Shown in pieces: positions 6,902 to 32,472 of a DNA stretch of 32,472 nt. Below the pieces are notes generated by a model. The model did not search any database. It was not told the DNA's origin and worked only from the letters and a program-made list of their open reading frames with translations. The translations under genes were made by a program, and so were the position numbers. Numbering within the stretch: position 1 is the stretch's first letter; every line of letters starts with the position of its first letter. Source of the stretch: an uncultured Bacteroidaceae bacterium (lineage in GTDB: Bacteria > Bacteroidota > Bacteroidia > Bacteroidales > Bacteroidaceae). The stretch is taken from the NCBI GenBank assembly GCA_905235565.1, contig CAJOLR010000023.1:1-32472 (forward strand). The letters run 5' to 3'.

Positions 6902-9900
6902 TTATCTGGTTAGGGTAAACTTAAGTGTCATGCCTGCATCATGTGTCGATGTCGGATAGGCCGAGGTTGACACAAGCGGGAAATTGCTCTGGAAGTCATA
7001 GTAGAAGTTCAGGGTGAGCATCCGGCTGTAAGTGTAGTCCGCGTTGAACGAGAACTTTATGGCGCGGTTACCGCTTGTTGCCTGGGTGGTGGTCTCACGC
7101 AGGTTTCGGCACAGGGCATTCTGATTGCGGAATGAGAAGTCCAGACTCATGTTGAGGTCATTGCTTACCCTGTTTCGTCCGCTGCCAGGCTGTGCCCCGA
7201 ACAGCTTGAGCCCGTTTATCTTGTAGCCTGCGCCCGCGGTTATGTCATCTGAAGTGGTTTCAACTACCTGTACGGCTGTGGTGCTGAGTGTAATCACACG
7301 CGTCTTGCGGAATTCCAGACGGGCCGATATGTCATTGTTGAATGTCATGTTCACTCCTGCCAGCGGAGCGAATGATTCATTGATAGATACAGAACTGATA
7401 TTGAACATCGTACTCGGTACAGGATTGCCGTTAGTCACATCCTCGATGAAACCGCGTCCGTTCATGAACTCCATATAGCTGTTGAAAGTATTGAAGCTGC
7501 CTATTGAATAGACACTCTTATAGGCATGCGTCAGGTTGAAGCTCTTGAAGTATTTCCTGAAGAACGGCAGCTTGCTCAATCCGCTGTAGGTGAGTGACCA
7601 GTTGGGGAGCATACGGAGCATATCCGGAATAAGGTCAAGAGTGGCTCTGTTGGCATTCCGTCCGGAGTATGCAGCCAGGAAGGCGGGAATGAGTACATCC
7701 GATGAATACATGTCCACCCCACCTGTGGACTTGTCATAGACCTGTCCGGCCCGGCTGCTTCCTGCGGGATAGCGTGCCCCTTCATATTCAGCCTCGATGC
7801 GGTCTCGTATGGTTGACAGGCTGCCGGTCAGCCGGTCAAAGCTGCGTGACCGGTAACCATTGTCCGATGAATGTCTCTCAAACGCGCTTCCGATGGAGAT
7901 CGTCGTCATGCTGAAACTGCCGCCCCTTGAACTGGGCATACCTTTATACATGTACTGTACGCTGTTGGACCCTGTCCTGTTCCAGCTTGCCGAAGCATCA
8001 ATCTTGATGTTACGTATGGGCTCGATGGATATCTTAACCTGAAGGTCCTCTATAGATGTTGAAGAGGCTGTATGTGCGATGCTGTCGCCTGAAAACAACC
8101 ATCCGTTGCTCCTGGCTTTGTAAAGATAGTCATCACCGGTCAGACCGAATGCGAAATCCAGCCCGGGGGAAAGCAGTCCGGTTGAGTTGTTCTGTCCTAA
8201 CAACCGGGAGTCGGGCATGAATCCGGGCAGAGACATGGTGTAATCATTCCTGTAAGATACAGATATGTTCCGTACCATCATCATTGTCCTGAGAGCCATC
8301 TTGAACCCGTCTTCAAACGCAAACTTCTGCGCCCTTTCAGGCTTGTCCGGATCCTGAACCACCTTAACCATTACGGACAGGGTATCCTTTACCTTCACTG
8401 AAATGCTGTCAGGACCTTTCTTCCTGAACTTGAGTTTCACGTTGGTTCCGTCTCTAAGTGTCGCCGTCAGCTTGGGATTGATCGTACCCAGATTGTGCGG
8501 AATGATGTTTACGGAATCCGGGAACAGTGTCATCTCCTGCTGGAAGTCCTTTCCCTTGTTGGCGTAAGAGTTGGTCATCTGGGAAATGTTGGCAGCATTG
8601 ATCTTCTTTAGATAAGGTACGCTGTTGTAAAGCCTGAGCAGGTTGAACTTTCCATTCAGTGATATGGAACGCCGGTTGGTTATGATATTACCGTAAGACA
8701 TTCCGTCCGGGTATGTGGTTCCCCGGTTCCATGAATAACCTGAGTTAAATCCGGCATCGGCCGTAATCCAGTCAGTCAAAGGTATCTTGCTGAAAGGTAT
8801 TGAATAAGAAGCGCTGAATGATTGGGTGTAGTCAAGCGGACGTCCCATATTCCGGATACTCATCTTGACGGAGTCTTTCCACATCTGATACTGGTCAGGG
8901 TAGAGGTCCTTGTTGACCACGGTATACGGTTCTTCGATCTCCGCCCTGGTCTTGGCATTGAAAGAGAGCTTCAATAACTGAAGCGGGTCCCATCTTATGG
9001 TAAGGTCGCGGTTCCAGTAGAACTGTTGGGAGAAAGTTACCGGTATCTGCTCCGATCCTTCCAGATCCCTCTCCTGAAGTTCGTGATAACTGCGTTGCAG
9101 GGCGGTGTTGAAAGAGAAACTGCTGGGTAGGAAATGGATTCTGGTGTCCTTGATCACTTTGAACCACTTGGCGTCAAAACCTATTCCTTCAAACGGAGAC
9201 CAGCCTTCCATGCCTGTCGAGTAACTGTAGTCAATGGCGGCCCTCCAGTTCTCTTCATGCTCATAGTCAATGGTGCTGTTGCTCCTGTCACTCTCGTTCT
9301 CCGAATAGCTGAATGAGAAGTTGGCCGGATCATAAGGCATGGGTTTTTCACTCCTGATGTTCAGCTTGGCGTTAGAGATGCTGAAATTATGGCTCTCCCT
9401 CAAGTCCTGCGTTATGGATTTGATGGAGTCACGAGCATTTCCCTTGGGATAAGATTCAATCACATTGTCCAGCAGCAGGTCTGTATCATACGGGCTGTAT
9501 TTGGGGGATGTCTTCTCTTTGGTATAGGAGTAATAGACCGGCACGGAAATCTTGGACTTCTCTGGAAGGAATCGTCCGACGTTCGTGCTGGTGGTTATTG
9601 CATACTTGAAATAATCATCCGTCTTACGGTCTTTTATACCTTGTTCCAGACCTCCGTAACCGGCTGTGCTCATCTGTCCGGACAAGTCTATGGAGGCTAT
9701 GTCCGAGAGCCTGATTCCAAGCGTGCTGTGAGCAGCCATACCACCTTTGCTCTCATAACCTACCAGACGCAGTTCGTTTACCCAAACCTCTGCGTTCTTG
9801 GCGCTCATTGAGTTGTTCCGGATACCTATCATTATGGCACGCACGTTACCTATCGAGGGGTTACCCACAATGCTTATCCTGTTCTCCGGATTGTTGGGGT

Positions 9901-12900
9901 CATACTCGCTGTATGCCGAAACAGATGTAAGAGCTCCCAGGTTTTTCTTTATGTTCCTGTTGTTCTTGACCTGGGTAAGTATGTCAAAATCAATATCCAG
10001 CATGTTCTTTTCGGGCCAAACGGCGCGCCGGTCGGTCTCATTGCTCCCGCTGTAATGGCCGGCTGGAGTCAGGTCAAGCGGTATCTCATACTCATAATAG
10101 TTTCCGGAGTAGTCCGATCCCAGACGTATGAATACCGATATGTCGCCGTTCTGAAGCGTTCCGTCATCCGGAATTACAGCTTCTGCATGGGAGAACATCT
10201 GTATGCGCTTGTATTTGCGCAGGTCAAGTGCACTCTTCTTGTAGATACCACGGGCCTCGCCTGCTCCCAATCCCATCACCTTAAGGCTCATGGCCTGCTC
10301 GTTATCCTGTATCAGCTGCACCTGGTTGGGGTCGATGATACGAGTAACGCCGGGAGGAACCACATAGTTGACAGGAGCGCGGTCTCCGTTCTCCTCTATG
10401 TTGACTGATGTAGCTGAGAATTTTCCGGAAATTGTGGGCGCACGGTTAGTGGTGCTGTATATGGGCTGTTCGTAGTTGCGCCATTGGCTGGTCATCAGTT
10501 CAAGTGACCCGAAACGGACATGGACCTCCTCACTGAATCCTGTCAGATATATACGCATGAACCTTATGGAACTGAAATCACGTATTCCGCCCTCTGTCTT
10601 CTCATATTCAGTCAGAGGAATGCGGAAACAGAACCAGTTCACGGTCTCGGTGCTGCCGTTGCGCAACTTGATCTTAACCTCACGTTTATCGGAAATATAG
10701 TTCTTTCCTATCTGCAGGTCCGAAGGACGCAGTGAAATCCGGTATTGGAAGAACTTTTCATATTCATCCATCGTGTAATCCCCGTTGGCATCCTCAACAT
10801 CGGGGGTGGTACGGGCCGACTGGTCATATCGGCTGCCGCTTTCGGCCGAATTCGGTGAGTTGCCTTCGGTCCCGTTGTATTTACGGTATCGGTCCAGTAC
10901 GGAGAGTTTCTGGTCATCGTAATCAGAACCGCGGTAGTAGTGATATGTGTCGGCGGCGGGATCATCGTAGAATGACTGGAACACATCGGGCTTAACCTTG
11001 CCGCGTATCTGGTTCAGATAGTTTGCGTAAGCAGGCCAGTTACGCTCCTCGTCGGATGTCAGTCCGTTCAGACCCACATCCTGCATTTCACGTGCATCGG
11101 CATTGGTATTGTCGAATGCATATACCAGGCTCTTGCCTGTTGGGACCTTTCCCCATATGGTCTGTGTCCATTTGGTGGTATCGCCATCTACAGGCATACC
11201 GTTCTCATAGAATTTCTTGCCGTCCAGAAGCACATCCTCCGATACCTCTCCCAGATTCAGGTACATGTCACCGCCTGTGCTGCCTGGGTTGTAGATAAAC
11301 GGATCGAGCATCCAGAACTCTATATATTCAATGTTGGCAGCTTCAAAATCGGTTGTGGTCAGCCTGCGCATTATACCACCCCAGTTGTCCTGCGGATTGC
11401 CCAGATGACCGTCCGAGTCAAGGTCAGGGTTCAGATTGTATGGGCCGCGTTCATTGGGATAGTAGGCCAGGTTAAGTATCGGTAGCGTGGTTGACTCACT
11501 TGAAGTGGATTCCTTGTTCGGATAGAGCTCCCGCTCGTATATCTCACGTACATAATGGTTTGAAAGCTGATCCAGGTCAGTCTTAATGTGCGCCGGTGTC
11601 AATGGAGAATTGCGGCGTGTAAACAACGGGTCAATGGTAAACCAGTTCAGCAACGCACGGTTGTATCCTGCCTCAATCTGACCAGTCTTACCGTATCCTT
11701 TCATGCCTTTGGGAACCGCCGACAATGACCATGCAGTTGGCTGTATGACAGATATCCCGTTCTCTGCGGACTCAAAGTCATCTATGTATGACGCCTGTCC
11801 CTGAACTTTGTCCGATACTTCGGACTGCAGAGCGGCCATCTCTGCCTTGAAGTTTATGCTGGATGGTTTTGTGGCGTTTACAAACGGTATCATGTCAATC
11901 AGGTTGGTCAATGCCTGACTTTCATGTTTCCAGTTTACATTAAGACCGTACATGGTGTTGACCAGCGGCTCGACACCCATCGTAACCTTGCTGGTCAGCG
12001 GTTTTTCATTCAAGTGCATGAAAGTACCGCCCATCTGCAGGTCATTGCTGAAGTTATACATCCAGTTCAGACCGGCCATCGTCTTGCGCTGCATGCTGTA
12101 TTCGGTGTTGCTCTCCAACTGTACGTTCACACTTGTACCTGCATCTATGATACTCTGATTGATGATGGTAACCGTACCCATGGCGTAATCGATGGTATAG
12201 TCTCTGTTCTCCTCCAGCGTTACGCCTCCGGCCGTCACTATCACCGACCCTCTGGGTATGTTGGTTGAACCCAGGCTGATTATGTTGCTGCTTGTACCTG
12301 AGTATTGGCCCATCAGCACGAACTTGTCCTTGTCGGCAATGCGCTTGGCAACTACACGCGTTGAGTCATATAGTTCCTGGAATACATATTTGTCGGCTAT
12401 CGCGTCATTGCCTATGACCTTGCGCAGATGACTGCCGAATGGTTCCACAACCGGAAATATTATCCGTCCGTTAGAAGCCTGTACCGTATAGCTGTCAATG
12501 AAATCGAACTTGCCGTTAGGATGGGGGTTGCTGTTGTCGTCCAGACGGTCCAGGTTGAGCATTCGCAGCAACGGCGTGCTCTTGAGTCCTGATTCCGGCA
12601 GGTATGAAAGGCGGCTTCCGGTACTGTCACTGTCATAATATACACCCAGCTTGAACTGGGCACTCTGTATGTTGCCGTGAGTGATGGAATAGATGTTCTT
12701 CATCATCAGGTCCCATGTCCCGCTTCCCGGTGAGTTTGAGTTGGATTTAAGCAGTTTGACATAAAGGGTCTGGCTGGCATCGGTCTTGTCCGATGAGAAC
12801 TCTCCCACCTGATAGCTGTTGCCTCCGTAGGTATATTCATACGCAACGGCCAGAACCTCATCGGACGACAGGGCGTTCTTGAGCGATATGTATCCCAGCT

Positions 12901-14131
12901 GGCTGTTTAGCGTATAGTCCGACGAACTGAGCTTACGTGCGTTCGACACCTTCTCATAGTCTGTGCTCCCTTCCAGGAAAGCCCCCAGTGTCACGGCTAC
13001 CTGATCTATATCGCGCGCTGCTGGATAGTCTGCAGTGATACGGCTGTACAGGTCATTGGCACCGTTTGATGGAACTGGGCCGGCCAGAGCATTCCACATT
13101 CCGTTACTTATGTGGCTTGTCTCACCTATATCGGTAAAAGCCACTATGTTGCGCGGGTTGTCATAGTTGCTCTTCTTGTTGGTGACCCACACCTCAATCC
13201 TGGTTATCTGAACCCCTGAAATGATATTGGGGAGCATTGACATGTTCTGGTCATAGCTGTCACGGAAGAAATGAGCCAGGAAAAAGTGGCGGTTCTCATC
13301 GTAACTGCTGGCGTCAATCTCAAAATCTGTAATCTGCTGTCCTCCCTTAGAACTGACCGATGCCGATGAAGACTCTTTCTGTGAGAGTACCATCTGCAGC
13401 TGAAGCTTTCCGAACTGCAGGTCTGTGCGTATGCCAAACAATGACGATGCTCCCTGAATAAGCGATGAATTCGTGGGGAAACTTATGTTGCCGGCCTCAA
13501 GCAGACGGATTATCTCATCCTCCTTGCCCTCGTAGCGAAGCTTTATCATCTTGGCGTCAATGTCAAAAGTAGCCTCAGTGTTGTAGTTGAGGTTCATGTT
13601 GATCTTGTCGCCCACACTGGCATTGATGTTAAGGTTTATCTGTTCGTCAAAGTCAAATCCTCCTGTGGAGCGGTTCTGGACGGAGAGTGATGGATTCTCC
13701 ACCTTGTTCCGGTTGAAGCCGAACTTGATTGCGGCCGATCCGCTGGTTCTTACCTGCACGCCTCCGGGGCCGAAAATCTTCTCTGCAGGCCCCAGGTCGA
13801 ATTTCATGTCCGTAAAGTCAAACTTGTCCTCGCCCAAGGCTGTCATTTCTTCGGAGTATTTCTCCCTATAGAAAGACTGCAGGGAACGTTGCATGAGCAT
13901 CCTGTTGTACTCTTCGGGAGTCATCACCGTGGGAACCTCAAGATAGCTCTCACCCAGTTTGTGTCCTATTCTGTACGTGTTGTCGCTCTCGTCGTATTTG
14001 ACATCTTCGGTAATGTTCTCCGGGTCAGGAAGTGTCAGCCGGGTACCTTGCGCATATAGGCAGTTCAGGCTCCCGCATACGCAGGAGCCTATCAGCAATA
14101 ATGCCGCAGCAAGGTATCTGGCTTTTATCAT
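6902..14131 (-). CDS. sprA: SprA, outer-membrane translocon of the type IX secretion system
   Basis: A giant 2409-residue protein with an N-terminal signal sequence (to about residue 28, LYAQG) and the repeated pattern of SprA/Sov proteins. Near the N-terminus are an FDFTDMKFDLGPAEKIFGPGGVQVRTSGSA-type segment and a GFDFDEQINLNINASVGDKINMNLNYNTEATFD-type segment; the remainder is mostly beta strands ending in YPTSTHDAGMTLKFTLTR. SprA is a very large single-chain beta-barrel that carries T9SS cargo across the outer membrane. The length is within the family range and no frame break is seen. ruvA lies 20 nt upstream, a neighbour often seen with sprA. The S74/T9SS-sorted protein at 46-1344 is a possible local cargo. 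Confidence 0.95.
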   Translation of the reverse strand: MIKARYLAAALLLIGSCVCGSLNCLYAQGTRLTLPDPENITEDVKYDESDNTYRIGHKLGESYLEVPTVMTPEEYNRMLMQRSLQSFYREKYSEEMTALGEDKFDFTDMKFDLGPAEKIFGPGGVQVRTSGSAAIKFGFNRNKVENPSLSVQNRSTGGFDFDEQINLNINASVGDKINMNLNYNTEATFDIDAKMIKLRYEGKEDEIIRLLEAGNISFPTNSSLIQGASSLFGIRTDLQFGKLQLQMVLSQKESSSASVSSKGGQQITDFEIDASSYDENRHFFLAHFFRDSYDQNMSMLPNIISGVQITRIEVWVTNKKSNYDNPRNIVAFTDIGETSHISNGMWNALAGPVPSNGANDLYSRITADYPAARDIDQVAVTLGAFLEGSTDYEKVSNARKLSSSDYTLNSQLGYISLKNALSSDEVLAVAYEYTYGGNSYQVGEFSSDKTDASQTLYVKLLKSNSNSPGSGTWDLMMKNIYSITHGNIQSAQFKLGVYYDSDSTGSRLSYLPESGLKSTPLLRMLNLDRLDDNSNPHPNGKFDFIDSYTVQASNGRIIFPVVEPFGSHLRKVIGNDAIADKYVFQELYDSTRVVAKRIADKDKFVLMGQYSGTSSNIISLGSTNIPRGSVIVTAGGVTLEENRDYTIDYAMGTVTIINQSIIDAGTSVNVQLESNTEYSMQRKTMAGLNWMYNFSNDLQMGGTFMHLNEKPLTSKVTMGVEPLVNTMYGLNVNWKHESQALTNLIDMIPFVNATKPSSINFKAEMAALQSEVSDKVQGQASYIDDFESAENGISVIQPTAWSLSAVPKGMKGYGKTGQIEAGYNRALLNWFTIDPLFTRRNSPLTPAHIKTDLDQLSNHYVREIYERELYPNKESTSSESTTLPILNLAYYPNERGPYNLNPDLDSDGHLGNPQDNWGGIMRRLTTTDFEAANIEYIEFWMLDPFIYNPGSTGGDMYLNLGEVSEDVLLDGKKFYENGMPVDGDTTKWTQTIWGKVPTGKSLVYAFDNTNADAREMQDVGLNGLTSDEERNWPAYANYLNQIRGKVKPDVFQSFYDDPAADTYHYYRGSDYDDQKLSVLDRYRKYNGTEGNSPNSAESGSRYDQSARTTPDVEDANGDYTMDEYEKFFQYRISLRPSDLQIGKNYISDKREVKIKLRNGSTETVNWFCFRIPLTEYEKTEGGIRDFSSIRFMRIYLTGFSEEVHVRFGSLELMTSQWRNYEQPIYSTTNRAPTISGKFSATSVNIEENGDRAPVNYVVPPGVTRIIDPNQVQLIQDNEQAMSLKVMGLGAGEARGIYKKSALDLRKYKRIQMFSHAEAVIPDDGTLQNGDISVFIRLGSDYSGNYYEYEIPLDLTPAGHYSGSNETDRRAVWPEKNMLDIDFDILTQVKNNRNIKKNLGALTSVSAYSEYDPNNPENRISIVGNPSIGNVRAIMIGIRNNSMSAKNAEVWVNELRLVGYESKGGMAAHSTLGIRLSDIASIDLSGQMSTAGYGGLEQGIKDRKTDDYFKYAITTSTNVGRFLPEKSKISVPVYYSYTKEKTSPKYSPYDTDLLLDNVIESYPKGNARDSIKSITQDLRESHNFSISNAKLNIRSEKPMPYDPANFSFSYSENESDRSNSTIDYEHEENWRAAIDYSYSTGMEGWSPFEGIGFDAKWFKVIKDTRIHFLPSSFSFNTALQRSYHELQERDLEGSEQIPVTFSQQFYWNRDLTIRWDPLQLLKLSFNAKTRAEIEEPYTVVNKDLYPDQYQMWKDSVKMSIRNMGRPLDYTQSFSASYSIPFSKIPLTDWITADAGFNSGYSWNRGTTYPDGMSYGNIITNRRSISLNGKFNLLRLYNSVPYLKKINAANISQMTNSYANKGKDFQQEMTLFPDSVNIIPHNLGTINPKLTATLRDGTNVKLKFRKKGPDSISVKVKDTLSVMVKVVQDPDKPERAQKFAFEDGFKMALRTMMMVRNISVSYRNDYTMSLPGFMPDSRLLGQNNSTGLLSPGLDFAFGLTGDDYLYKARSNGWLFSGDSIAHTASSTSIEDLQVKISIEPIRNIKIDASASWNRTGSNSVQYMYKGMPSSRGGSFSMTTISIGSAFERHSSDNGYRSRSFDRLTGSLSTIRDRIEAEYEGARYPAGSSRAGQVYDKSTGGVDMYSSDVLIPAFLAAYSGRNANRATLDLIPDMLRMLPNWSLTYSGLSKLPFFRKYFKSFNLTHAYKSVYSIGSFNTFNSYMEFMNGRGFIEDVTNGNPVPSTMFNISSVSINESFAPLAGVNMTFNNDISARLEFRKTRVITLSTTAVQVVETTSDDITAGAGYKINGLKLFGAQPGSGRNRVSNDLNMSLDFSFRNQNALCRNLRETTTQATSGNRAIKFSFNADYTYSRMLTLNFYYDFQSNFPLVSTSAYPTSTHDAGMTLKFTLTR

Positions 14132-22002: not shown

Positions 22003-22980
22003 TTAGAAACTGTCCTCAATAATCTCAGTGAAAACATCCGTAAGGTTCATGCCTGCTGCCTTTATCTGCTGCGGAATGAAACTGGTGGCGGTCATGCCCG
22101 GGGTGGTGTTCACCTCAAGTAGGTTAATCTTGTCGCCGTCAGTGATTATATAGTCATTCCTGATAATGCCGTGACAACCTATCAGGTCATATATCTTTGC
22201 AGTCAGGTCCTGGATGCGGTCACGCAAATCATCAGGAATGCGGGCAGGGGTAATCTCCTCCACATTGCCGTTGTATTTTGCGTCATAATCAAAGAAGTCA
22301 CTCTTGGGAACCACTTCGGTAACCGGCAGCTTGACCTCACGTCTGCGGGTCTTGTAGTATCCGTTGGTAACCTCTGTGCCCTGCATGAACGATTCAATCA
22401 TTATCTCATTGTTCTCCTTGAAAGCCTCCTCTACAGCCGGTATTATCTGTTCACGGGTCTTAACCTTGGTGGTGCCAAAGCTTGATCCTCCGTCGGTGGG
22501 CTTGATGAAGCAGGGCAGTCCCACCTTGCGTATTATCTTGTCAGGATCAACGGAATCACCCTTACGCAGGCGGCGTGAATTGGCTACGTTAACCTTGCAG
22601 CTCTTCATGGTCTTGTTGAGCACGAATTTGTTGAAAGTAAGTGCCGATGCCAATACATCACATGTGGAGAACGGGATGCGCATAAGTCTGAGATATCCTT
22701 CAAATACGCCGTTTTCACCGGGGGTTCCGTGTATTGTGATGTATGCGTAATCAAACACTTTCCTGGTGCTCCCCATCAGGAAACCGAAATCATTACGGTC
22801 AACCGGGACGGTAACTCCGTCCTTTATGTGAACCTGCCAGTTCTTTCCCTCAATCTCAACGATGTAGGGCTCATATCTATCCTTGTCCATGTGCTCAAGG
22901 ATAGTGGCTGCACTCCTTAATGAAACCGGATTCTCGCTGGAATCTCCTCCTGCTACTATTGCAATTATGCGTTTGCTCAT
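22003..22980 (-). CDS. ddl: D-alanine--D-alanine ligase
   Basis: The 325-residue ATP-grasp enzyme joins two D-alanines for peptidoglycan precursors. It opens with IIAIVAGGDSSENPVSLRSA, the D-Ala binding start of Ddl. Later come HGTPGENGVFEGYLRLMRIPF, CFIKPTDGGSSFGTTKV (ATP loop), EVTNGYY and the metal-binding LLEVNTTPGMTATSFIPQQ near the C-terminus. The length is normal. It lies 15 nt downstream of rluD and in a unit with the PASTA protein and an acyltransferase, so envelope synthesis is the common theme. Confidence 0.95.
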   Translation of the reverse strand: MSKRIIAIVAGGDSSENPVSLRSAATILEHMDKDRYEPYIVEIEGKNWQVHIKDGVTVPVDRNDFGFLMGSTRKVFDYAYITIHGTPGENGVFEGYLRLMRIPFSTCDVLASALTFNKFVLNKTMKSCKVNVANSRRLRKGDSVDPDKIIRKVGLPCFIKPTDGGSSFGTTKVKTREQIIPAVEEAFKENNEIMIESFMQGTEVTNGYYKTRRREVKLPVTEVVPKSDFFDYDAKYNGNVEEITPARIPDDLRDRIQDLTAKIYDLIGCHGIIRNDYIITDGDKINLLEVNTTPGMTATSFIPQQIKAAGMNLTDVFTEIIEDSF

Positions 22981-22995
22981 ATTATTGTACTATTT

Positions 22996-24069
22996 TTAAA
23001 AATCTCTTGATTTTACGTAGTCACGCCATCTCCCTATGAGAGTAGCCATATCTTCCGGCAGTTCAGAGTTGAAGAACATCTCCTTACCGCTGACAGGGTG
23101 TACAAAACCCAGGGTTTTGGCGTGAAGTGCCTGTCGCGGACACACTTCAAAGCAGTTCTGTACAAACTGACGGTATCGGCTGTATGTGGTTCCTTTCAGT
23201 ATCTGGTCTCCTCCGTAACGGCTGTCGCTGAACAGAGGGTGGCCTATGTGTTTCATGTGCACCCTGATCTGGTGTGTCCGTCCGGTCTCCAGACGGCATT
23301 CCACCAACGATGTATACCCGAACCTTTCCAGAACGGTATAGTGGGTAACAGCATGCTTGCCCACTTCCGGGTCAAAAGACACAGCCATCTGCAGCCGGTC
23401 CTTGGGGTTGCGGGTTATCTGGCTCTCAACTGTGCCTTCGGCAGGGTCGGGAACGCCCCAAACCAGGGCCTGATATGCCCGCTTGGTGGTCTTGTCATAA
23501 AACTGCTTGCCCAGGCCGGTTTTTGCATCGGGGGTCTTTGCCACTACCAGCAGACCTGATGTGTCCTTGTCTATACGGTGTACAAGACCCACTTGGGGGC
23601 TGTTAGGGTCATAATCCTTGTTGTCGCGCATATGCCACGCTACAGCATTGACCAGTGTGCCGTGAAAGTTGCCGCATCCCGGGTGTACAACAAGTCCGGC
23701 AGGCTTGTTTACCACCATAAGGCAGTCGTCTTCATAAACTATATCCAGAGGAATCTCCTCGGGCTCTATATCGCTGCTGTAACGCGGACGGTCCATCATG
23801 ACCGTGATCACGTCCAGCGGCTTGACCTTATAATTACTCTTTACTGGGCGGCCGTTTGCCATCACCATTCCGGCATCGGCAGCTTTCTGTATCCGATTGC
23901 GTGAGGCATGTTCCAGATGGTCAAACAGGAACTTGTCCACACGGAGCAGACTCTGGCCCTTATCAGCTGCAACGCGGAAATGCTCATAGAGTTCTACCGC
24001 ATCAGGGGCAGGTTCCAGGTCGTCCAGCGACTCGTCAATCTCATCTTGCAGTTCCTGCATGGGGGTCAT
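22996..24069 (-). CDS. rluD: RluD-family 23S rRNA pseudouridine synthase
   Basis: The 357-residue protein has an N-terminal S4 RNA-binding domain (about 40-92: LRVDKFLFDHLEHASRNRIQ, GRPVKSNYKVKPLD) and the RsuA/RluA catalytic domain. The active-site stretch is GLVHRIDKDTSGLLVVAKT with catalytic Asp167, preceded by NKPAGLVVHPG (121-131) and followed by GRTHQIRVHMKHIGHPLFSD. RluD in E. coli modifies helix 69 of 23S rRNA. The Bacteroidetes member is probably equivalent, though RluC-like specificity cannot be ruled out. Start ATG overlaps the PASTA stop by four bases. Confidence 0.9.
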   Translation of the reverse strand: MTPMQELQDEIDESLDDLEPAPDAVELYEHFRVAADKGQSLLRVDKFLFDHLEHASRNRIQKAADAGMVMANGRPVKSNYKVKPLDVITVMMDRPRYSSDIEPEEIPLDIVYEDDCLMVVNKPAGLVVHPGCGNFHGTLVNAVAWHMRDNKDYDPNSPQVGLVHRIDKDTSGLLVVAKTPDAKTGLGKQFYDKTTKRAYQALVWGVPDPAEGTVESQITRNPKDRLQMAVSFDPEVGKHAVTHYTVLERFGYTSLVECRLETGRTHQIRVHMKHIGHPLFSDSRYGGDQILKGTTYSRYRQFVQNCFEVCPRQALHAKTLGFVHPVSGKEMFFNSELPEDMATLIGRWRDYVKSRDF

Positions 24070-24680
24070 TCAAAGAATTCAGAGTCAATTATAGTTGTAG
24101 AGTCGGCCTCCTCTATGCTTTCCACAGGATTGCCGTTTCCGGCAACGATGGTCAGGGTGGATCCTTCGGGTATCTCGGTGCCGGCCTCAATGGTCTCTCC
24201 CTTATATCTTATCTCATAAACCCAGTCCAAATCACCGTCCACATAAACCGTTTTGTCCAGTTTGAATCCTGCAGCTTCAAGTCTTGATTCGGCCGCACGC
24301 AGCGAACTGTTGTCGGCCACATCGGGTACAGCTCTCATGGGTTCCTTTCCGGAATTCAGGGTCAGATATACCTTACGCCCATCCTTTACATAGGCGCCGG
24401 GCTTGGGTTTTTGCTCAATGACACCGCCCTCAACCGCCATCTTGTCATACTTATAGTCCGTAACCTCATATTTCAGCCCGATTGATGCGAGAGCCTGTCC
24501 GGCCTCCTCCTCATACATACCTGACACATCCGGCACTGTGATATATTGGCCGTGGAGTGTATATGATTTTATCCACCTTAATGTCAAGAGCACCAGGATG
24601 GTTCCTATGACAACCATTGCCAGCACATTGATCAGTATAATTACTAAACCGCTTACTTTACTGTTTTTTCCTTTAGCCAT
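24066..24680 (-). CDS. Membrane-anchored PASTA-domain protein
   Basis: The start at 24680 (MAKGKNSKVSG) is preferred to one four codons upstream; it gives 204 residues. A short basic cytoplasmic end precedes one transmembrane helix (about 9-35: GLVIILINVLAMVVIGTILVLL). Outside are two PASTA repeats: VPDVSGMYEEEAGQAL...YVKDGRKVYLTLNSG and VPDVADNSSLRAAESRLEAAGF...EGSTLTIVAGNG, then an acidic tail. PASTA domains bind peptidoglycan or its precursors. There is no kinase domain and none next to the gene, unlike the PASTA kinases of Firmicutes. It leads an operon with rluD and ddl, which points to a role in wall growth. Confidence 0.85.
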   Translation of the reverse strand: MAKGKNSKVSGLVIILINVLAMVVIGTILVLLTLRWIKSYTLHGQYITVPDVSGMYEEEAGQALASIGLKYEVTDYKYDKMAVEGGVIEQKPKPGAYVKDGRKVYLTLNSGKEPMRAVPDVADNSSLRAAESRLEAAGFKLDKTVYVDGDLDWVYEIRYKGETIEAGTEIPEGSTLTIVAGNGNPVESIEEADSTTIIDSEFFE

Positions 24681-24921: not shown

Positions 24922-25923
24922 TTACAATGACTGGGAGAAATCAAAGATATAGTCATCACTACCGAATGGCAAAGTACCCAGCTCAATGATCCAAGCAGCG
25001 TTCATAGTAACATAAAGCTTGCTGGTTTTGGTATCAAGTTCTGCATTGGCATTGGTGAATCTGAATTCTCCAAGGTAGGGATAAGTGCCATAGTAATAGA
25101 AGTTTTCATCAGTCTGTCCGACAACCTGATCCGGAATTGAAACAGAATAGTCTTTCTTGTTGATGTAAACCTTCATCTGCTCGTCATATCCCCATCCATA
25201 CCAGTCAAAGGTGATGATAAGGCCGATGATATCGTCTGCAGTAAAGTCACTGCCATAGATCTCTGCCGGTATATCAGCCGATGCCATTCTGGTAATATCA
25301 GCACCATAAGATGCCTCATAGTCAGAACCGGCACTTTCAGTGCAGAGAATGGTGTTGCCACCTGCAAAATGAGCCTCGTTCAGAGGAGCTGCAGCGGTAA
25401 ACGTAGCGCAGTAGTTATACTTGGAACCGTCAGGCATAGACAGGATTGTAGGAGCACGATGGTTGAAACCCATTACAGGTGACCAACCGGGAACCACAGT
25501 TCCGTCCTTATGAATGACATTTGCAGTAAACTGCATCTTGTCCCCAATCATGGGTGATGGGATGCCAAGTTCTGCGCAAAGCGCAGGCATATCAATCTTG
25601 ACATCAGCAGGGAAAGATGTTATGCCTTCAGCAGCAATTGCAGAAGTAACCTCACCGACAACGGGAGTATAGACGCAAAGCAACTGAGCCTCCTTGAAAT
25701 AGGATTGGTAATCACCCATATACTTAGGTACATCCAGACGGACATGGTAGTCACCATCTGTAGTACCGGCAGCAAGAAGGAGGTCATATTGTGTATTTTT
25801 GCTTACAGATACAGAGAATGTATGCAACGTACCCTCAAGATCATAAGGAAGCTCGGGATCCTTGCTGCATCCGGCAAGAACTGCCGGAATAGCCATAGCC
25901 AAAATTATTTTTGATGTTTTCAT
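24922..25923 (-). CDS. Lipoprotein of unknown function downstream of susD
   Basis: The start at 25923 (MKTSKIILAMAIPAVLAGCSK) gives a clear signal with lipobox LAGC (Cys19). An upstream GTG would overlap the susD stop and adds nothing. The 333-residue product has beta-rich segments (TLHTFSVSVSKNTQYDLLLAAGTTDGDYHVRLDVP, MQFTANVIHKDGTVVPGWSP, KSYSV-like strands) and many aromatics in the C-terminal half (DWYGWGYDEQMKVYI, NFYYYGTYPYLGEF). I do not recognise a named family. As third gene after susC-susD and before the terminator, it is likely a surface lipoprotein that helps bind the same nutrient, as SusE/SusF-type partners do (inference). Confidence 0.75.
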   Translation of the reverse strand: MKTSKIILAMAIPAVLAGCSKDPELPYDLEGTLHTFSVSVSKNTQYDLLLAAGTTDGDYHVRLDVPKYMGDYQSYFKEAQLLCVYTPVVGEVTSAIAAEGITSFPADVKIDMPALCAELGIPSPMIGDKMQFTANVIHKDGTVVPGWSPVMGFNHRAPTILSMPDGSKYNYCATFTAAAPLNEAHFAGGNTILCTESAGSDYEASYGADITRMASADIPAEIYGSDFTADDIIGLIITFDWYGWGYDEQMKVYINKKDYSVSIPDQVVGQTDENFYYYGTYPYLGEFRFTNANAELDTKTSKLYVTMNAAWIIELGTLPFGSDDYIFDFSQSL

Positions 25924-25946: not shown

Positions 25947-27629
25947 TCACTGAACATCCCAGAATACGTTAGTATATGAACTAACAGTACGGTTCTTGTT
26001 ATTGATGTTCACGTTATTGAGCTGTATCTCATCTTCAGGATACCACATGATTCTGGGATAATCCAGGATAACAGCGCAATCATAGGCCAGAGGCTCGGGC
26101 AGAGGAGTGGCAGCTGAAGTCTGATCATAAGGAGTATAAATCTTTCTCTCAGCATTTCCCTTGAACAGTACAGGATAACCGGTGCGACGGATGTCATTGT
26201 ATGCCTCAACAGAATTGAAGAAGTTGGCAATCCACTTCTCGGTCATGACAATCTCAAGTTTCTTGTCGTTTGTGGCAGCATTGTCATAAGCGCTGTTTAC
26301 GCCAAGCAGCAAGCCGGCGATAGCGGTTTCATCAATTGCAGGCACAGTAGGATCAGAAGCCTTGGATACGGCATTGACATGAGCGATAGAAGCCCTGATT
26401 CCCTCCTCAAGAAGCTGCTTGGCATCGCCGGCTGCACCTTCTGTCAGAACAAGTTCTGCTTTCATGAAAGGAACCGAATATGCCTGGAGCATCTTGTCGG
26501 GGGCGATACCGTTACCCTTACCGCCTACTGTTCCGCCCTGACCGTCATCAAACTTACCGCCTACAGGATAGATACCGATGCAGGTCATTGAATTCTCCTG
26601 TGACATTGAAGTCTTACCTGAGTTACTGCCGGTAAATATAGATACGAAAGCTCCGTCACGATAATCAGTCTCGTTAGAGGCATTGGCAGTTGCTGTAATC
26701 TGGTTTACATAATAGTAAGGAACTCGGGGATCAACGACACCTGCCAGAGGGTTCTGCTTGAAGTTATAGGTCTTACCGTTCAGTACCTCATAGAACCAGG
26801 GATTGATCCATACGCTCTTCTGACCGCCTTCATATTCATCTACATAACCGGACTTACGCTCGTCGGTAGGAGTCTTGGTAGCAGAGTGCGGGAACTGCAG
26901 GTCTTCACCTTCAGCAATGAAATTGTTCTCAGCAAGAAGTGCATCAAGCTCAGTCTGCCATCCAGTGATGTCAGCCTTGGCCTTACGGCTCTGAACCAGC
27001 AGTTTCAGTTTAAGGGTATTGGCAGCCTTGAGCCACTTAACGGCATCACCGCCATAGAACAGGTCATTGGCTCCGATAGCCAGAGGATTGTCGGACTCTG
27101 TATCCTTGAAATTGGCAATAGCCTTGTTGATTACAACCAGAAGGTCATTGTAGATATCCTTGCTGGAATCAGCCTTAGGAGTCTCAATGCCGGCTACGTT
27201 AGCCTCTGAGTAAGGGATATCACCCCAAAGGTCTACCATATTCATATAGGTATAAACCCTGAGTACGCGGCCGATACCTGCGCAGATTGCATCACCGAGC
27301 TCATCGCCCTGCTTAATCATCTCATCACAATTCTTGATGGCATATCTGTAAGCCTGTGTCCAAGTGTTGCCAAGGGTTGAATAACCGGCAACAAGTGAGT
27401 AGTTGTCAACCTCACGGCTTGTGGTATGCTGTACATATGACTCCAGGTGGGTGTTGATATAATAACCCTCAGAGAAAGTGGCAGCGACCTCATATTCCGT
27501 GCAGGTAACCAGCTGGGAAACATCAAGGTCTGTCACTGCATACGGATCCTGGTTGATATCCAGATCGCAACCGGTCAGTGAGAAAGCCATGACTCCGGCT
27601 CCAAGCAAATAAAATATTCTATTTTTCAT
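25947..27629 (-). CDS. SusD/RagB-family outer-membrane lipoprotein
   Basis: The 560-residue protein begins with a lipoprotein signal ending SLTGC (Cys21). It continues DLDINQDPYAVTDLDVSQLVTCTEYEV, which fits the SusD-like_2 type, with helical TPR-like parts (LGNTWTQAYRYAIKNCDEMIKQGDEL; INKAIANFKDTE; AVKWLKAANTLKLKLLVQSRK). The end EDEIQLNNVNINNK and EAYNDIRRTGYPVLF is usual for the family. SusD proteins form the lid on a SusC transporter and capture a glycan or peptide at the cell surface. It lies 13 nt after susC. The ligand cannot be read; no polysaccharide-degrading genes adjoin this operon. Confidence 0.93.
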   Translation of the reverse strand: MKNRIFYLLGAGVMAFSLTGCDLDINQDPYAVTDLDVSQLVTCTEYEVAATFSEGYYINTHLESYVQHTTSREVDNYSLVAGYSTLGNTWTQAYRYAIKNCDEMIKQGDELGDAICAGIGRVLRVYTYMNMVDLWGDIPYSEANVAGIETPKADSSKDIYNDLLVVINKAIANFKDTESDNPLAIGANDLFYGGDAVKWLKAANTLKLKLLVQSRKAKADITGWQTELDALLAENNFIAEGEDLQFPHSATKTPTDERKSGYVDEYEGGQKSVWINPWFYEVLNGKTYNFKQNPLAGVVDPRVPYYYVNQITATANASNETDYRDGAFVSIFTGSNSGKTSMSQENSMTCIGIYPVGGKFDDGQGGTVGGKGNGIAPDKMLQAYSVPFMKAELVLTEGAAGDAKQLLEEGIRASIAHVNAVSKASDPTVPAIDETAIAGLLLGVNSAYDNAATNDKKLEIVMTEKWIANFFNSVEAYNDIRRTGYPVLFKGNAERKIYTPYDQTSAATPLPEPLAYDCAVILDYPRIMWYPEDEIQLNNVNINNKNRTVSSYTNVFWDVQ

Positions 27630-27642
27630 AATAATCAGTCTA

Positions 27643-30600
27643 TTAGAATGTTAAACTCAGATTAAAAGCAACCCTCCTGGTTGAAGGAGCTCCAGTATAG
27701 TCTATACCCTGAATGTTAGTGTTACCGAATGTGTTCACAACGGGATCATAGTTGGAATACTTAGGAACATTAGGAGCAAAGTACCAGAGGTTGCGGCCTA
27801 CTACTGAAACCTCGGCATTTGAAAGTCTCAGCTTGCTTGTAAACTTCTTAGGCAGATTATAAGCAAGGGTTACCTCTCTCAAGCGCCATACTGTTGCATC
27901 GTATGTGGCAACCTCATCGCAAGAGTTGATAGCGAAGGTTGAATAGGTTCCGTCTGAGAACCAGAGGTCAGCCTCACTGATGGCTGTGGTGTTCCAGATG
28001 TAGTTCTGGTCAGCATCAAGGATAGGCTCCAGTGTGTTGGCATCGCCGTAAACACCCTTGACTACGCGCACACCGAGACGATCCTCAGTGTCCTTGGTAA
28101 CGCCACGACCCAGCAAATCTGTCAGGTATGAACTGAATACGCAACCACCCTTCTGGTAGTCAAACATAAAGCTGAGTGACAGATCCTTATACTTTAAGGT
28201 ATTGGTAAGAGAAGTTTTGAACTCAGGGTTAGGATCACCTATTACACCATATTCGGGATCATTGATATACATACCGGTTGACGGATCAACAAGTGGAATA
28301 CCATCGGCTGTACGGGCCAGTTTCTCACCCTTAAGGACACCGTAGGGCTGTCCCTTGATAAGAACTGCCTGAGGAGCTGCGAAGTCACCGCCGAGAACGA
28401 TCTCATCAACACCGTCAGAAAGCTCAACAATCTCTGACTTGTTCTTGGTGTATGTGAGATACATGCTCCATGTGAAGTCCTTGGTTACTACAGGATAGAG
28501 GTCAACACCAAGTTCGAAACCCTTGTTCCTGATTGAACCGAAGTTTGTAACGAATGAACTGTAACCGGTTGAAGGAGCAGAACTCTTGGCACCGATCTGG
28601 TTTTCTGAAAGACGGTTATAAAGGGTAGCGTCAATACCTATGCGGCTATCCAGGAACTTAAGTTCAAGACCTGTCTCTATCTCAGTTGTGAACTCAGGCT
28701 CAAGTTCAGGATCATACAGTACTGTAGGAAGCTCCATCATACCCTGACCCATGTAAGGACTACCTATTACATATGTACCGTTGTTGTAATAAGGACCGGC
28801 ATCATTACCGACCTTTGCCCAACCGGCACGGATCTTACCGAAGTTAAAGAAACTGTCCTCCAGGCCAAGAGCATCGGTGAATACTACAGAACCTGATACG
28901 GCAGGATAGAAGAAACTGTTGTGTGCAATAGGAAGTGTTGAAGACACATCATTACGTCCTGAGATGTTCAGGAATGCCCACTGGTTATAATCCAACAGGA
29001 TATCGGCAAATATACCGTACTTACGTGTCCTTGAATATGACTCACTTGCAGTCTGTCCCTTTGTATTTGATAGCTCAAATATGTTGGGGTTGATGATGTC
29101 GGAACCTGAAGCACCCATTGACTCATAGGTATCCTGGTTATAGTTATAACCTGCAGTTGCCCTTACACCGAAATCAGAGAATCTATTGTTATAGGTGAGC
29201 AACAGGGTTGACTCTATCTCCTGGTCACTTGCCTCGGACTTGCTCAGGTAACCGTTACCGGCATAACCGCGTGAACCAAGGTTTACGATAGTCTTACGTG
29301 AAACCATGTATTCATTTACACCGAGAGTGTAATCCATTGTGAGCCACTTGGCAAACTCATAAGAGAAGTTTGCATTGGCAACGATACGTTTCTGGATAGT
29401 CTTGAACTTATCGTTCTCCCATGCCCAATAGGGGTTGTTGGCCTGTGAAGAGAGCTGGAACAGCAGGTTGCTGCCATCCTTCTTCTTATAAGGGAAGTTC
29501 TGGATATCCCAGCTACGCGGCATTATGAATGCACGTGCCAGAGAGTTCATACCGCCGTTTGATGCGCTTGACTGGTTGTTACCGTACATAGGTGACATCT
29601 GGTCTGTATATGAATAAGCCAGGTTACCGCCGGCGCGGAACTTCTTGCCGAATTTCTGGTTGCCACCCACGGAGAATGAGTAACGGTCAAAATCTGAACC
29701 GGGGATATAGCTATCCTGGTCTGTGCGTGATATGGTCATGTTGAAGTTACCCTCATCTGTTACTTTCTGAACGTTTGCAGACAGGTCAAGCACATGACCT
29801 TTCTGGAACAGGTCCTTAACGTTATTGGGATATGCCTTATAAGGGATATCGCCATTCAGGTCAGGATAAAGCTCAAGAGCCAGATCAGGATACTCAGAAT
29901 CTATGGCAGCATACATGGGGATAGTCATGTCATCCTCAAATGCAGCACCCCATGAACCGTTGGCACCACCGATATTGAAGTCACTGCCCTGACCATACTT
30001 GTTCTGATAATCAGGAAGTGAAGCTATTGTCTCTATAGCGTATGATGAATTCACGTTAACGGTGAAACCCTTCTTGGCGTTAGACTTCTTTGAACCTGAC
30101 TTGGTTGTGATTAGTATGACACCGTTAGCGGCACGTGAACCGTAAAGGACGGCAGCTGCAGCACCCTTAAGAACGTTCATTGACTCAATGTCATTGGGGT
30201 CAAGGGTTGAGATACCTGAACCGAAAGCACCGCTGTTACCGGATCCGCGGCCGGAAGCACCTGTACCGTCGTTACTGTAAGGAATACCATCTACAACATA
30301 AAGAGGCTGGTTGTTGCCACTGAATGAAGAGTTACCACGGATTGTGATACGAGTAGCACTACCTGCATCACCGCTCGGGGCACTGATCTGAACACCGGGA
30401 ATCTTACCGTCCAGAGCACGGAGCATATCGGGCTCAGCCTTCATGATAGCTTCATCAGCATCAACCTTCGTCACCGTGTAACCAAGAGAACGCTCTGAAC
30501 GTTGGATACCTACGGCAGTGATGAGCACATCATCTACCAGTATTGAACCCGGCTGAAGGGCAACGTTGATAACTGTTCTGCCATTAACCGGAACTACGGC

Positions 30601-30834
30601 ATCGTCATAGCCCAGGAAGGAGAACACCAATGTACCGTTGGATGGTACTTGAATTGAATAGGCACCATCCAGATCTGTAGTAGTACCTCTACCTGTTCCC
30701 TGAACTGCCACTGCGACTGCCGGCATTGGGCTTCCGTCCTCGGCCGATGTCGCAATTCCCGTAACTTGCAAATTCTGAGCAAAGGCAAGCCCTGCGCTCA
30801 AAACAGCAGCCATCATTAAGAGAATTTTTCTCAT
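27643..30834 (-). CDS. SusC/RagA-family TonB-dependent outer-membrane transporter
   Basis: ATG at 30834 (MRKILLMMAAVLSAGLAFAQ) is preferred over a TTG two codons upstream; it gives 1063 residues. After the signal peptide there is a carboxypeptidase-regulatory-like domain (about 22-105: VTGIATSAEDGSPMPAVAV, TTTDLDGAYSIQV), then the plug (about 110-235: PDMLRALDGKIPGVQI, ITIRGNSSFSG, PLYVVDGIPY, LNVLKGAAAAVLYGSRAANGVILI-type sequence), and the beta-barrel ending RRVAFNLSLTF. It imports nutrients with SusD as lid and TonB energy. Its leader and first codons lie in an inverted repeat matched to a second susC start at 32462, and no -7 box is found upstream, so it is predicted to be off in this orientation. 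Confidence 0.95.
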   Translation of the reverse strand: MRKILLMMAAVLSAGLAFAQNLQVTGIATSAEDGSPMPAVAVAVQGTGRGTTTDLDGAYSIQVPSNGTLVFSFLGYDDAVVPVNGRTVINVALQPGSILVDDVLITAVGIQRSERSLGYTVTKVDADEAIMKAEPDMLRALDGKIPGVQISAPSGDAGSATRITIRGNSSFSGNNQPLYVVDGIPYSNDGTGASGRGSGNSGAFGSGISTLDPNDIESMNVLKGAAAAVLYGSRAANGVILITTKSGSKKSNAKKGFTVNVNSSYAIETIASLPDYQNKYGQGSDFNIGGANGSWGAAFEDDMTIPMYAAIDSEYPDLALELYPDLNGDIPYKAYPNNVKDLFQKGHVLDLSANVQKVTDEGNFNMTISRTDQDSYIPGSDFDRYSFSVGGNQKFGKKFRAGGNLAYSYTDQMSPMYGNNQSSASNGGMNSLARAFIMPRSWDIQNFPYKKKDGSNLLFQLSSQANNPYWAWENDKFKTIQKRIVANANFSYEFAKWLTMDYTLGVNEYMVSRKTIVNLGSRGYAGNGYLSKSEASDQEIESTLLLTYNNRFSDFGVRATAGYNYNQDTYESMGASGSDIINPNIFELSNTKGQTASESYSRTRKYGIFADILLDYNQWAFLNISGRNDVSSTLPIAHNSFFYPAVSGSVVFTDALGLEDSFFNFGKIRAGWAKVGNDAGPYYNNGTYVIGSPYMGQGMMELPTVLYDPELEPEFTTEIETGLELKFLDSRIGIDATLYNRLSENQIGAKSSAPSTGYSSFVTNFGSIRNKGFELGVDLYPVVTKDFTWSMYLTYTKNKSEIVELSDGVDEIVLGGDFAAPQAVLIKGQPYGVLKGEKLARTADGIPLVDPSTGMYINDPEYGVIGDPNPEFKTSLTNTLKYKDLSLSFMFDYQKGGCVFSSYLTDLLGRGVTKDTEDRLGVRVVKGVYGDANTLEPILDADQNYIWNTTAISEADLWFSDGTYSTFAINSCDEVATYDATVWRLREVTLAYNLPKKFTSKLRLSNAEVSVVGRNLWYFAPNVPKYSNYDPVVNTFGNTNIQGIDYTGAPSTRRVAFNLSLTF

Positions 30835-30942
30835 AGACAATTTATTTAGTTTGACAATAGTTTGTTATTATCCCATTTTGTTTGATTCTTTGAACTGCTC
30901 ATACTGTAAATAAACTAACAGTCAAAGTAGTAGCCCAACTTT
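30824..30942 (-). repeat. Left inverted repeat: susC leader plus recombination site
   Basis: Read on the minus strand, 30942-30824 matches 32346-32472 on the plus strand. A 27-bp block (30916-30942 with 32346-32372) is identical, then the right copy has eight extra bases (TTGTTATT), then 92 bp (30824-30915 with 32381-32472) are identical to the end of the window. The repeat includes the susC start and first codons. Its true end inside the second gene is beyond the window. Confidence 0.95.
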
Positions 30943-30945
30943 GAC
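30921..30945. repeat. Left recombination site
   Basis: The arms GTCAAAGT (30921-30928) and ACTTTGAC (30938-30945) are perfect 8-bp inverted copies around the asymmetric 9-bp spacer AGTAGCCCA. This arm-spacer-arm form is typical of core sites of tyrosine recombinases. The spacer and outer arm recur in reverse orientation at 32351-32367. Confidence 0.75.
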
Positions 30946-30950
30946 CTTTC

Positions 30951-30961
30951 ACCAGACTGGT
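30951..30961. repeat. Small palindrome inside the invertible segment
   Basis: ACCAG-A-CTGGT is a perfect 5-1-5 palindrome, enclosed by TGACC/GGTCA (30942-30946, 30959-30963), just inside the left site. It could be an accessory binding site or a weak hairpin after the recombinase gene; there is no U-run for a terminator. The remainder of this 183-bp gap (30835-31017) is mostly the repeat. Confidence 0.3.
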
Positions 30962-31017
30962 CACAGCAATTGTCTATGACAAATATTACTTAAATAAATA
31001 GCCTTTTATGATACTGA

Positions 31018-32211
31018 TCAGTTACTGAACTTCTTCAGCTCCCTTACTATTGTCATGTCCATCACGGCACAATATCTCATGGTTGTTCTGATATTCTTGT
31101 GACCCAACAATTTCTGCACAGTAGTCACAGAGACCCCTTTGTAAAGCAGAATGGTTGCATTTGTGTGCCGGGACGAGTGGAACGATATATGTTTCTCCAA
31201 TCCCGCCTTATGATATGCCTTTTTTAGTACTCTATCCGTCACCGCATTAGATGGCAAATTGAAAAACTCCAACAAATCATCTCCGTATCTTTCAATCAGT
31301 TCCAACCCCTTGCCTTCAAACATCAATCCAAGAGGAATCTTTACATCTATACCGGTCTTGACACTTTTGTAACTAAGCCAGCTCTCTTTACTCCTTAAAT
31401 CAAAATTAGCACTTGAGAGTCTGATAAAATCAGAGTATCTCATTCCCGTATAGCAGCAGAACAGGAATGCATCAAGACATTTTGCCTCATTATCCAGAGG
31501 TCTTCTATGCATGCATCTGGAGTATTGTTCCAGCAACTCCAGTTCGGCTGGCGAAAGATATGAGCTATGATAGCTGTCATGGGTGATCTTTATGGAATTG
31601 AATGGGTTTTGCCCATGTGCCATTACCCCTTGGTTCTCGGCAGAGTTCAGAAACGTCTTAAGATGCGTCAGGTGCTTTGCTATGGTGTTGATTGCACAAC
31701 CTCTGTCTTTCATCCATTTTTCGAATCCTTTTATAAAAGGTATGTTTATTTCAGAAATATGGAGGTTTGGTCTGAATTCATCCAGCAGTTTCAAAGTAGT
31801 CATCTTATTGCTCTTGGTACTTGGCCGGTTCAGACTTGTATCGATGTATCTGTTCATGAGCGTTGATACTGTCACATCACTATTTCGACACTCTGATTTA
31901 CAATAACCTCTTTGTCGTGCCAGATCAACCAGCCTGTCAAGTCTGACTTCATTTCCATTTCTCCAGAGCTCAATCTCCATAGCCTCAAGCTTGTTCCGGG
32001 CATCATATATCATCATGTTAAGACCTGTTGCATTGGGATGATTCCTGATTTCCTCCCTGGCGCGATCCCACTGGCAGGGCTTGATATAAATGTTTGTGCT
32101 GAAGTATTTTCTCTTACCATCCTGATACGCCTCAATCTGTATAAGAGCAGTCCCGTTTACGCATAAAAACCCACTACGGTTGTAGACAAATCTGTATCTG
32201 ACCTTTTCCAT
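31018..32211 (-). CDS. Tyrosine recombinase (DNA invertase candidate)
   Basis: The 397-residue protein has an N-terminal arm-binding domain (about 1-95, with IQIEAYQDGKRKYFSTNIYIKPCQWD), a SAM-like core-binding domain (about 112-212) and a catalytic domain. Catalytic residues appear in order: Arg258 in CYTGMRYSDF, a probable Lys285 in the beta-hairpin YKSVKTG, His345/Arg348 in SFHSSRHT, His371 in LLGHKN, and nucleophile Tyr380 in MRYC. No residue is missing, so it should be active. It lies wholly between the two inverted repeats and points towards the susC at 27643-30834. It resembles the Bacteroidetes integrases that invert promoters, and no phage or conjugation genes are nearby. Its local base composition is more AT-rich than the operons to the left. 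Confidence 0.9.
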   Translation of the reverse strand: MEKVRYRFVYNRSGFLCVNGTALIQIEAYQDGKRKYFSTNIYIKPCQWDRAREEIRNHPNATGLNMMIYDARNKLEAMEIELWRNGNEVRLDRLVDLARQRGYCKSECRNSDVTVSTLMNRYIDTSLNRPSTKSNKMTTLKLLDEFRPNLHISEINIPFIKGFEKWMKDRGCAINTIAKHLTHLKTFLNSAENQGVMAHGQNPFNSIKITHDSYHSSYLSPAELELLEQYSRCMHRRPLDNEAKCLDAFLFCCYTGMRYSDFIRLSSANFDLRSKESWLSYKSVKTGIDVKIPLGLMFEGKGLELIERYGDDLLEFFNLPSNAVTDRVLKKAYHKAGLEKHISFHSSRHTNATILLYKGVSVTTVQKLLGHKNIRTTMRYCAVMDMTIVRELKKFSN

Positions 32212-32269
32212 TGTTGTAATTTAATATAAAAAAGATGTTTATTTTTGAATTTTTTCCATTGGAATTGCC

Positions 32270-32277
32270 TATATTTG
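32270..32277 (+). promoter_or_regulatory. Promoter inside the invertible segment, pointing right
   Basis: TATATTTG fits TAnnTTTG exactly; a TTTG at 32244-32247 lies 22 bp upstream, a little longer than the usual spacing. Transcription would start near 32284, pass the right repeat, and reach the susC-like ATG at 32462 after about 178 nt. No comparable promoter reads left from 30943-31017. If the segment inverts, this promoter would instead drive the left susC. Confidence 0.6.
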
Positions 32278-32342
32278 CGCGAAATGTCAAAATATACATA
32301 AAAATTTTTGAATATTTGATAGATATTTATACAAATTGAACT

Positions 32343-32367
32343 TCGAAAGTTGGGCTACTACTTTGAC
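32343..32367. repeat. Right recombination site
   Basis: The spacer TGGGCTACT (32351-32359) and outer arm ACTTTGAC (32360-32367) are identical to the left site in reverse. The inner arm TCGAAAGT (32343-32350) is imperfect against GTCAAAGT. The spacer identity is what strand exchange between the two sites would need. Confidence 0.75.
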
Positions 32368-32472
32368 TGTTATTGTTATTGTTTATTTACAGTATGAGCA
32401 GTTCAAAGAATCAAACAAAATGGGATAATAACAAACTATTGTCAAACTAAATAAATTGTCTATGAGAAAAAT
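32346..32472 (+). repeat. Right inverted repeat, including second susC leader
   Basis: This is the partner of 30824-30942 in opposite orientation, 127 bp to the window edge against 119 bp on the left. The one difference is eight extra bases near 32373-32380, which form a TGTTAT tandem. The 92 bp after it are perfectly identical, through the leader and start codon. Confidence 0.95.
32462..32472 (+). CDS. Start of a second SusC-like gene (partial)
   Basis: The window ends 11 bases after an ATG that reads MRK, identical at DNA level to the start of the left susC and preceded by the same leader. It is therefore probably the 5' end of a second SusC/RagA transporter gene on the plus strand. The body of the gene is not visible, so a truncated or decoy copy is also possible. 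Confidence 0.55.

Follow-up and report, generated by a model that had tools for sequence, protein, structure and literature searches.

A probable self-contained invertible promoter cassette between two divergent SusC operons in an uncultured Bacteroidaceae bacterium

How might a cell with two divergent SusC receptor operons, separated by a recombinase gene, choose the one that it expresses? The question is raised by the right-hand end of the stretch of DNA analysed here (the window), 32,472 nucleotides that make up the entire contig C23 in the genome of an uncultured gut bacterium of the Bacteroidaceae (G000; 2.2 Mb in 91 contigs). The locus comprises an inverted repeat, an enzyme gene, a pair of dyads, a one-sided promoter motif and complete operons, and it recurs in relatives. 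We regard a self-contained invertible promoter cassette as a highly probable explanation of the whole; in particular, a cassette with its own enzyme and one outward promoter very probably picks, by turning, the receptor that is made.

The inverted repeat and the two operons

The left arm of the repeat (30824..30942, 119 bp) contains the start of susC1, its leader and a proposed crossover dyad. The right arm (32346..32472, 127 bp) stops at the contig end, and the right limit of the repeat falls beyond the visible window. The arms are 100% identical over an outer block of 92 nt (30824-30915 and 32381-32472) and an inner block of 27 nt (30916-30942 and 32346-32372); 8 additional bases separate both blocks in the right arm, which accounts for the difference in length. 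Each arm includes a susC leader and the opening 11 bases of a susC gene, with ATG codons at 30834 (minus strand) and 32462 (plus strand). Chance was rejected as the origin of the repeat on account of the 92-bp perfect match. As in an inverton, the repeats lie around an outward promoter, which is recognized by its motif.

Operon 1 runs leftward on the minus strand. It begins with susC1 (27643..30834), which encodes a SusC/RagA family TonB-linked protein of 1063 aa, and continues with a SusD-like gene (25947..27629) and a third gene (24922..25923) whose product matches nothing in Pfam or NCBIfam at the limits applied. On the right-hand side, the window holds only the opening bases of a second susC (32462..32472, plus strand), and we infer that they continue as susC2 on another contig, C56 (8010-11210 of locus L006). 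The final 92 bases of the window, once reverse-complemented, match the end of C56 exactly, and this 92-mer occurs in three places only in the genome, two on C23 and one on C56. The gene order on C56 is a 1066-aa SusC, a SusD-like protein, a BT_2262-like protein, a Lipid_bd-domain protein and an S41 peptidase. Both SusC1 and SusC2 score above the cut-off for TIGR04056 and TIGR04057, and a nutrient-uptake role is predicted from membership in the SusC/SusD families.

The genus mate G027 carries the corresponding locus on a single contig, where operon 2 (93% identity over 4.9 kb, its susD reading as two ORFs) lies directly right of the recombinase gene and the locus is enclosed by the chromosomal flanks that G000 has on C23 and C56. 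C56 would thus be the right half of the locus. An earlier note, made from the window sequence, had described a 119/127-bp inverted repeat with a susC leader and start codon on each side, which the coordinates bear out, and had predicted a second susC operon, which is present on C56 and contiguous in G027. It had also proposed to check that the right-hand ATG leads into a transporter gene; by way of the presumed join, C56 yields a complete susC operon, and an ATG leading nowhere is thereby rejected, given that join.

The recombinase, its candidate sites and the promoter

Between the arms lies a gene for a tyrosine recombinase of 397 aa (31018..32211, minus strand), an intact reading frame with Arm-DNA-bind_5, Phage_int_SAM_5 and Phage_integrase domains. 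Within the catalytic domain, R258, H345-x-x-R348, H371 and Y380 can be read from the sequence as what we take to be the R-H-R-H-Y catalytic set of the family. The protein attains no NCBIfam equivalog cut-off. Elsewhere in the G000 genome there are six further, weaker tyrosine-recombinase matches, and these enzymes could act at the cassette instead.

Relatives of the enzyme were found in 4 of the 37 genomes of the genus (E 1e-60), and in 63 of 399 family genomes and 7 of 393 order genomes (both at 1e-65); the search of viral_contigs gave one candidate stretch and zero confirmed relatives. The window enzyme is 87% identical to that of G027 and 41% identical to that of G030. We considered 35 distinct relatives' loci, namely six from the order search, the best 28 new ones from the family search, and G019, with G000, G027 and G030 left out of the count (L041 and L104 are identical DNA). 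Divergent susC genes flank the enzyme at 26 of these loci; in the DNA examined around the remaining nine, mostly 1.5 kb per side, susC stands on a single side or is absent. L042-L044 have no divergent susC pair around the enzyme. At 23 of the 26 divergent loci, the susC on the 3' side of the enzyme is headless, aligning only from reference residue 53-81, and both susC genes are complete at the other three (L097, L101 and L040). In the recombinase tree, the window enzyme groups with those of G027, G030, G019 and six of another genus, the other 29 rows standing apart; G030 and G019 sit on long branches and their placement is unsure.

Each arm carries at its inner end a dyad consisting of CAAAGTAGTAGCCCAACTTT plus one base, which is likely to be the crossover site. 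The left dyad, CAAAGTAGTAGCCCAACTTTG, lies at 30923..30943 (plus strand), and the right dyad, CAAAGTAGTAGCCCAACTTTC, which shares 20 of 21 bases with it, at 32345..32365 (minus strand). They are 1422 bp apart, and the distances from them to the respective susC ATGs downstream are 88 and 96 bp. The 19-bp dyad core, allowing up to two mismatches, occurs in the 2.2-Mb genome at the two arms only, and a reversed control pattern gave 0 matches. G027 has CAAAGTTGTAGCCCAACTTTG and a copy with a final T, and G030 has GAAAGTTGCGCCCCAACTTTC at both arms.

To rank candidate sites, we used a weight matrix of 23 sites out of the 35 relatives' loci, chosen by a motif already noticed in the repeats; at least three of the 23 (from L097, L099 and L101) are leader copies from another genus. 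With this matrix the dyads rank first and second in the window (15.1 bits; next 9.5), in G027 (17.5; next 8.4) and in G030 (8.3; next 6.6). When the other genus is left out, which leaves 17 sites, an unrelated site scores best among 64,906 positions and the window dyads take the next two places; those of G027 are still first and second, and those of G030 fall outside the top four. The 17-site result indicates a fair resemblance to susC-internal sites for the dyads of G000 and G027, and none that is evident for those of G030.

Note that similar dyads also occur in the leaders of some single-operon species that lack this enzyme. In G018, for example, a leader dyad scores first with both the 23- and the 17-site matrices, so the dyad may serve another role. 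Palindromic elements resembling the dyad, such as CAAAGTTTTAACCCGACTTTG in G018, are present in susC leaders of single-operon species of the genus, at L061 (8022), L057 (3493) and L054 (2416). Such palindromes may be relic sites or RNA hairpins; when leader RNAs were folded, hairpins of variable sequence appeared in many of them.

The motif TAnnTTTG is the Bacteroides -7 element. On the 5' side of the enzyme gene, the plus strand carries a promoter -7-like element, TATATTTG, at 32270..32277, aimed right towards operon 2, and a second promoter-like element, TATTTTTG, at 32240; both are recognized by motif and are the same in G027. The C56 SusC2 is too short in the promoter survey, and the 32270 element would be its promoter. 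TAnnTTTG is absent from the minus strand of the right side and from both strands of the left intergenic region (30841-31017). A candidate promoter facing susC1 on the left, TAATATTTG, was rejected, as it misses TAnnTTTG by one spacing base and is absent from G027. In G030, the motif is likewise confined to the 5' side of the enzyme gene, and across the recombinase loci (G000, G027, G030 and G019) it is found upstream of the 5'-side susC in four of four cases and of the 3'-side susC in none of four. At loci without a recombinase, 18 of 19 susC genes have TAnnTTTG at up to about 230 bp (shuffles give 4.7), with distances unreliable and the ATG misplaced for some genes, and 13 of 19 have the longer TAnnTTTG[CG][CG] (0.8 expected). 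G005, which lacks a recombinase, has a TAnnTTTG for each of its two divergent operons. Read-through from the recombinase gene into susC1 may occur, which counts against a switch.

The predicted switch and its alternatives

The following mechanism is proposed. The putative recombinase would act at the dyads on the inner ends of the arms and invert the intervening 1.42 kb. From the 5' side of the enzyme, the outward promoter would read across the site into one susC leader, so that in the sequenced orientation operon 2 (on C56) would be on and operon 1 (in the window) off, and after a flip operon 1 would be on and operon 2 off. Both orientations would thus be expected to occur, with the operon that is off being silent. 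Because the dyads lie upstream of the ATGs, each SusC would keep its own start codon and signal peptide, and hence whole operons would be exchanged, not protein heads.

Most elements of this mechanism had been anticipated in the earlier note. The complete recombinase that it placed between the arms is there as an intact frame with three domains, and the inside promoter aimed outward on one side corresponds to the motifs at 32240 and 32270, on the plus strand only. Its suggestion that crossover upstream of the start codons leaves both coding regions intact finds support in the dyad positions, and the layout that it read as a two-operon switch is supported by the second operon, the one-sided promoter, the matching dyads and the recurrence in relatives.

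Three other explanations were weighed. The switch may have inverted formerly and now be locked or decaying, with operon 2 permanently on. None of the assemblies compared (one per species) showed the flipped state, the promoters of G000 and G027 both face operon 2, and G005, in the same flank-tree clade, has two divergent operons without a recombinase, all of which would suit a locked switch. However, the 397-aa frame of the recombinase is intact and 87% identical to its G027 counterpart, and the arms are still identical save for the 8-bp insertion, and we therefore consider a locked switch unlikely.

Alternatively, gene conversion between the leaders of two susC genes could be the main origin of the repeat, with the enzyme a bystander or active elsewhere. 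This would be in keeping with an identity that reaches far beyond the dyad, up to the start codons, and with the fact that leaders of single-operon species are also alike. Against this, the dyad core is restricted to the two arms in the G000 genome, and at the corresponding chromosomal position G030 repeats the gene order around a recombinase of only 41% identity, which makes gene conversion quite improbable as the main source. An assembly artefact, in the inverted repeat or in the order of the contigs, might be suspected, since the contig stops within the repeat and its link to C56 is itself deduced, but G027 and G030 carry the layout inside single contigs, and an artefact seems extremely improbable. 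The invertible cassette is accordingly the reading that we retain.

The locus occupies a variable chromosomal position. Its flank in the window consists of genes for a PASTA-domain protein (24066..24680, minus strand), an RluD-like protein (22996-24069) and a D-Ala-D-Ala ligase (22003-22980). The other flank, on C56 (L006 2628-3538), contains EF-P, identified by Pfam, and an ORF of 53 aa (3377-3538) that resembles ribosomal protein L34 and is presumably rpmH. Among the 37 genus genomes, 34 yielded EF-P and 36 the RluD-like gene, and both are on one contig in 30. Judged by spacing, the hotspot is empty in 11 of these 30, EF-P and the RluD-like gene being about 1.1 kb apart (two of the 11 were annotated). 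The 19 filled hotspots comprise 15 with a single SusC operon (one of them, G024, also with a remnant of operon 2), the divergent pair without a recombinase in G005, the pairs with a recombinase in G027 and G030, and other genes in G008; SusC operons thus occupy 18 of 30. The G008 hotspot (L051 11240-18466) has a 2408-aa ORF and no SusC, and BLASTP finds no relationship between this ORF and the window's 2409-aa SprA_N-domain protein (6902-14131).

Relatives of SusC1 (88-89%) stand alone in G006, G011 and G018, and so do relatives of SusC2 (83-89%) in G002, G014, G015 and G033. On a flank tree of the EF-P, PASTA and RluD proteins, operon 2 (four rows) requires four changes and operon 1 (three rows) three, and shuffled labels require no more. 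Operon 2 is common to G000 and G027, on opposite sides, but the identity between the other SusC proteins of the two is only 29.5%. The scattered distribution and the flank tree indicate that the contents of the hotspot slots change often between species. A more speculative, and on balance doubtful, idea is that the gap between EF-P/rpmH and PASTA/RluD is a dedicated two-slot station at which SusCD operons are swapped between species, with the invertase as reader; the leader dyad that many of these operons share would double as the crossover site, so that an incoming operon with a standard leader would fit either slot and be switchable at once, in a manner somewhat reminiscent of an integron, here for outer-membrane receptors.

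Comparison with known systems

The closest known system is the SusC/SusD shufflon of B. fragilis (region EE, invertase Tsr0667), which, in the accessible text of the papers on it, has inverted repeats across susC/ragA start codons, an invertible promoter and alternative SusC/SusD pairs (PMC5729914, PMC4747536, PMC11852207). The present locus shares these three features. However, as far as that text describes it, the shufflon moves large segments with multiple gene pairs, whereas here a single 1.4-kb segment contains the enzyme gene and the promoter and lies between two operons. Tsr0667 is described as active at three SusC/SusD clusters and nine other regions (PMC4747536, accessible text), whereas the dyad core of this genome occurs nowhere else in it. 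With two dyad places, one recombinase and two operons, the locus has neither the more than two gene pairs nor the distant sites of a multi-operon shufflon. The accessible parts of other papers report receptor shufflons in B. thetaiotaomicron (PMC12548429), inversions near susC/susD in IBD (PMC10939037) and inversions in general (PMC12632263, PMC12118408, PMC10994844, PMC11892184). Invertible promoters of Bacteroidales capsule and surface-layer loci also lie between inverted repeats, often near an integrase gene (PMC12118408, accessible text), but their segments, as described there, are 183-345 bp and turn one operon on or off, whereas the present segment includes the enzyme gene and serves two operons.

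A partial-text literature search, with subscription papers mostly outside its reach, returned no paper with this exact layout. Switches of this kind are already known in the group, and the compact two-way form with both genes whole looks like a new variety of SusC/SusD phase variation. If it works as proposed, it would be a minimal either-or switch for two outer-membrane receptor operons, in which 1.4 kb accommodates a single enzyme gene, a single promoter and two sites.

The comparison extends to the 23 relatives' loci with a headless 3'-side susC, where a flip would exchange the heads of the proteins; the B. thetaiotaomicron BT1040-BT1046 cluster resembles such SusC head-swapping loci. Like the present locus, they have an enzyme (38-48% identical to that of the window) between divergent susC genes, an inverted repeat between enzyme and susC, and a headed gene on the 5' side of the enzyme. 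Here, in contrast, both susC genes are complete and both dyads precede the ATGs, so that no crossover would fall within susC. Among the relatives, one susC body that lacks its head in L096 possesses one in L097 (96.9% over 324 aa), and weaker crosses of this type link L104/L097, L102/L107 and L111/L122; these crosses, with differing partners, fit switching or reshuffling. In G019 (L076 6419 and 7543), off the hotspot, a divergent susC pair and a recombinase are accompanied by a 17-bp inverted repeat, GTTGTGCCGGAACTAAC, and its recombinase has no arm-binding domain match.

In L097 and L101, which belong to another genus, the left dyad is part of a complete susC gene's leader, and its partner on the right is inside susC (leader dyads of that genus are at L097 718-737, L101 628-647 and L099 854-873). 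A flip in L097 would end the moved head at a stop right after the site, ahead of the ATG of the complete gene. If it works as proposed, the window locus would link promoter switching and SusC head-swapping, in that one recombinase family seems to do either, according to the position of its site; L097 and L101 combine a leader site with a susC-internal one.
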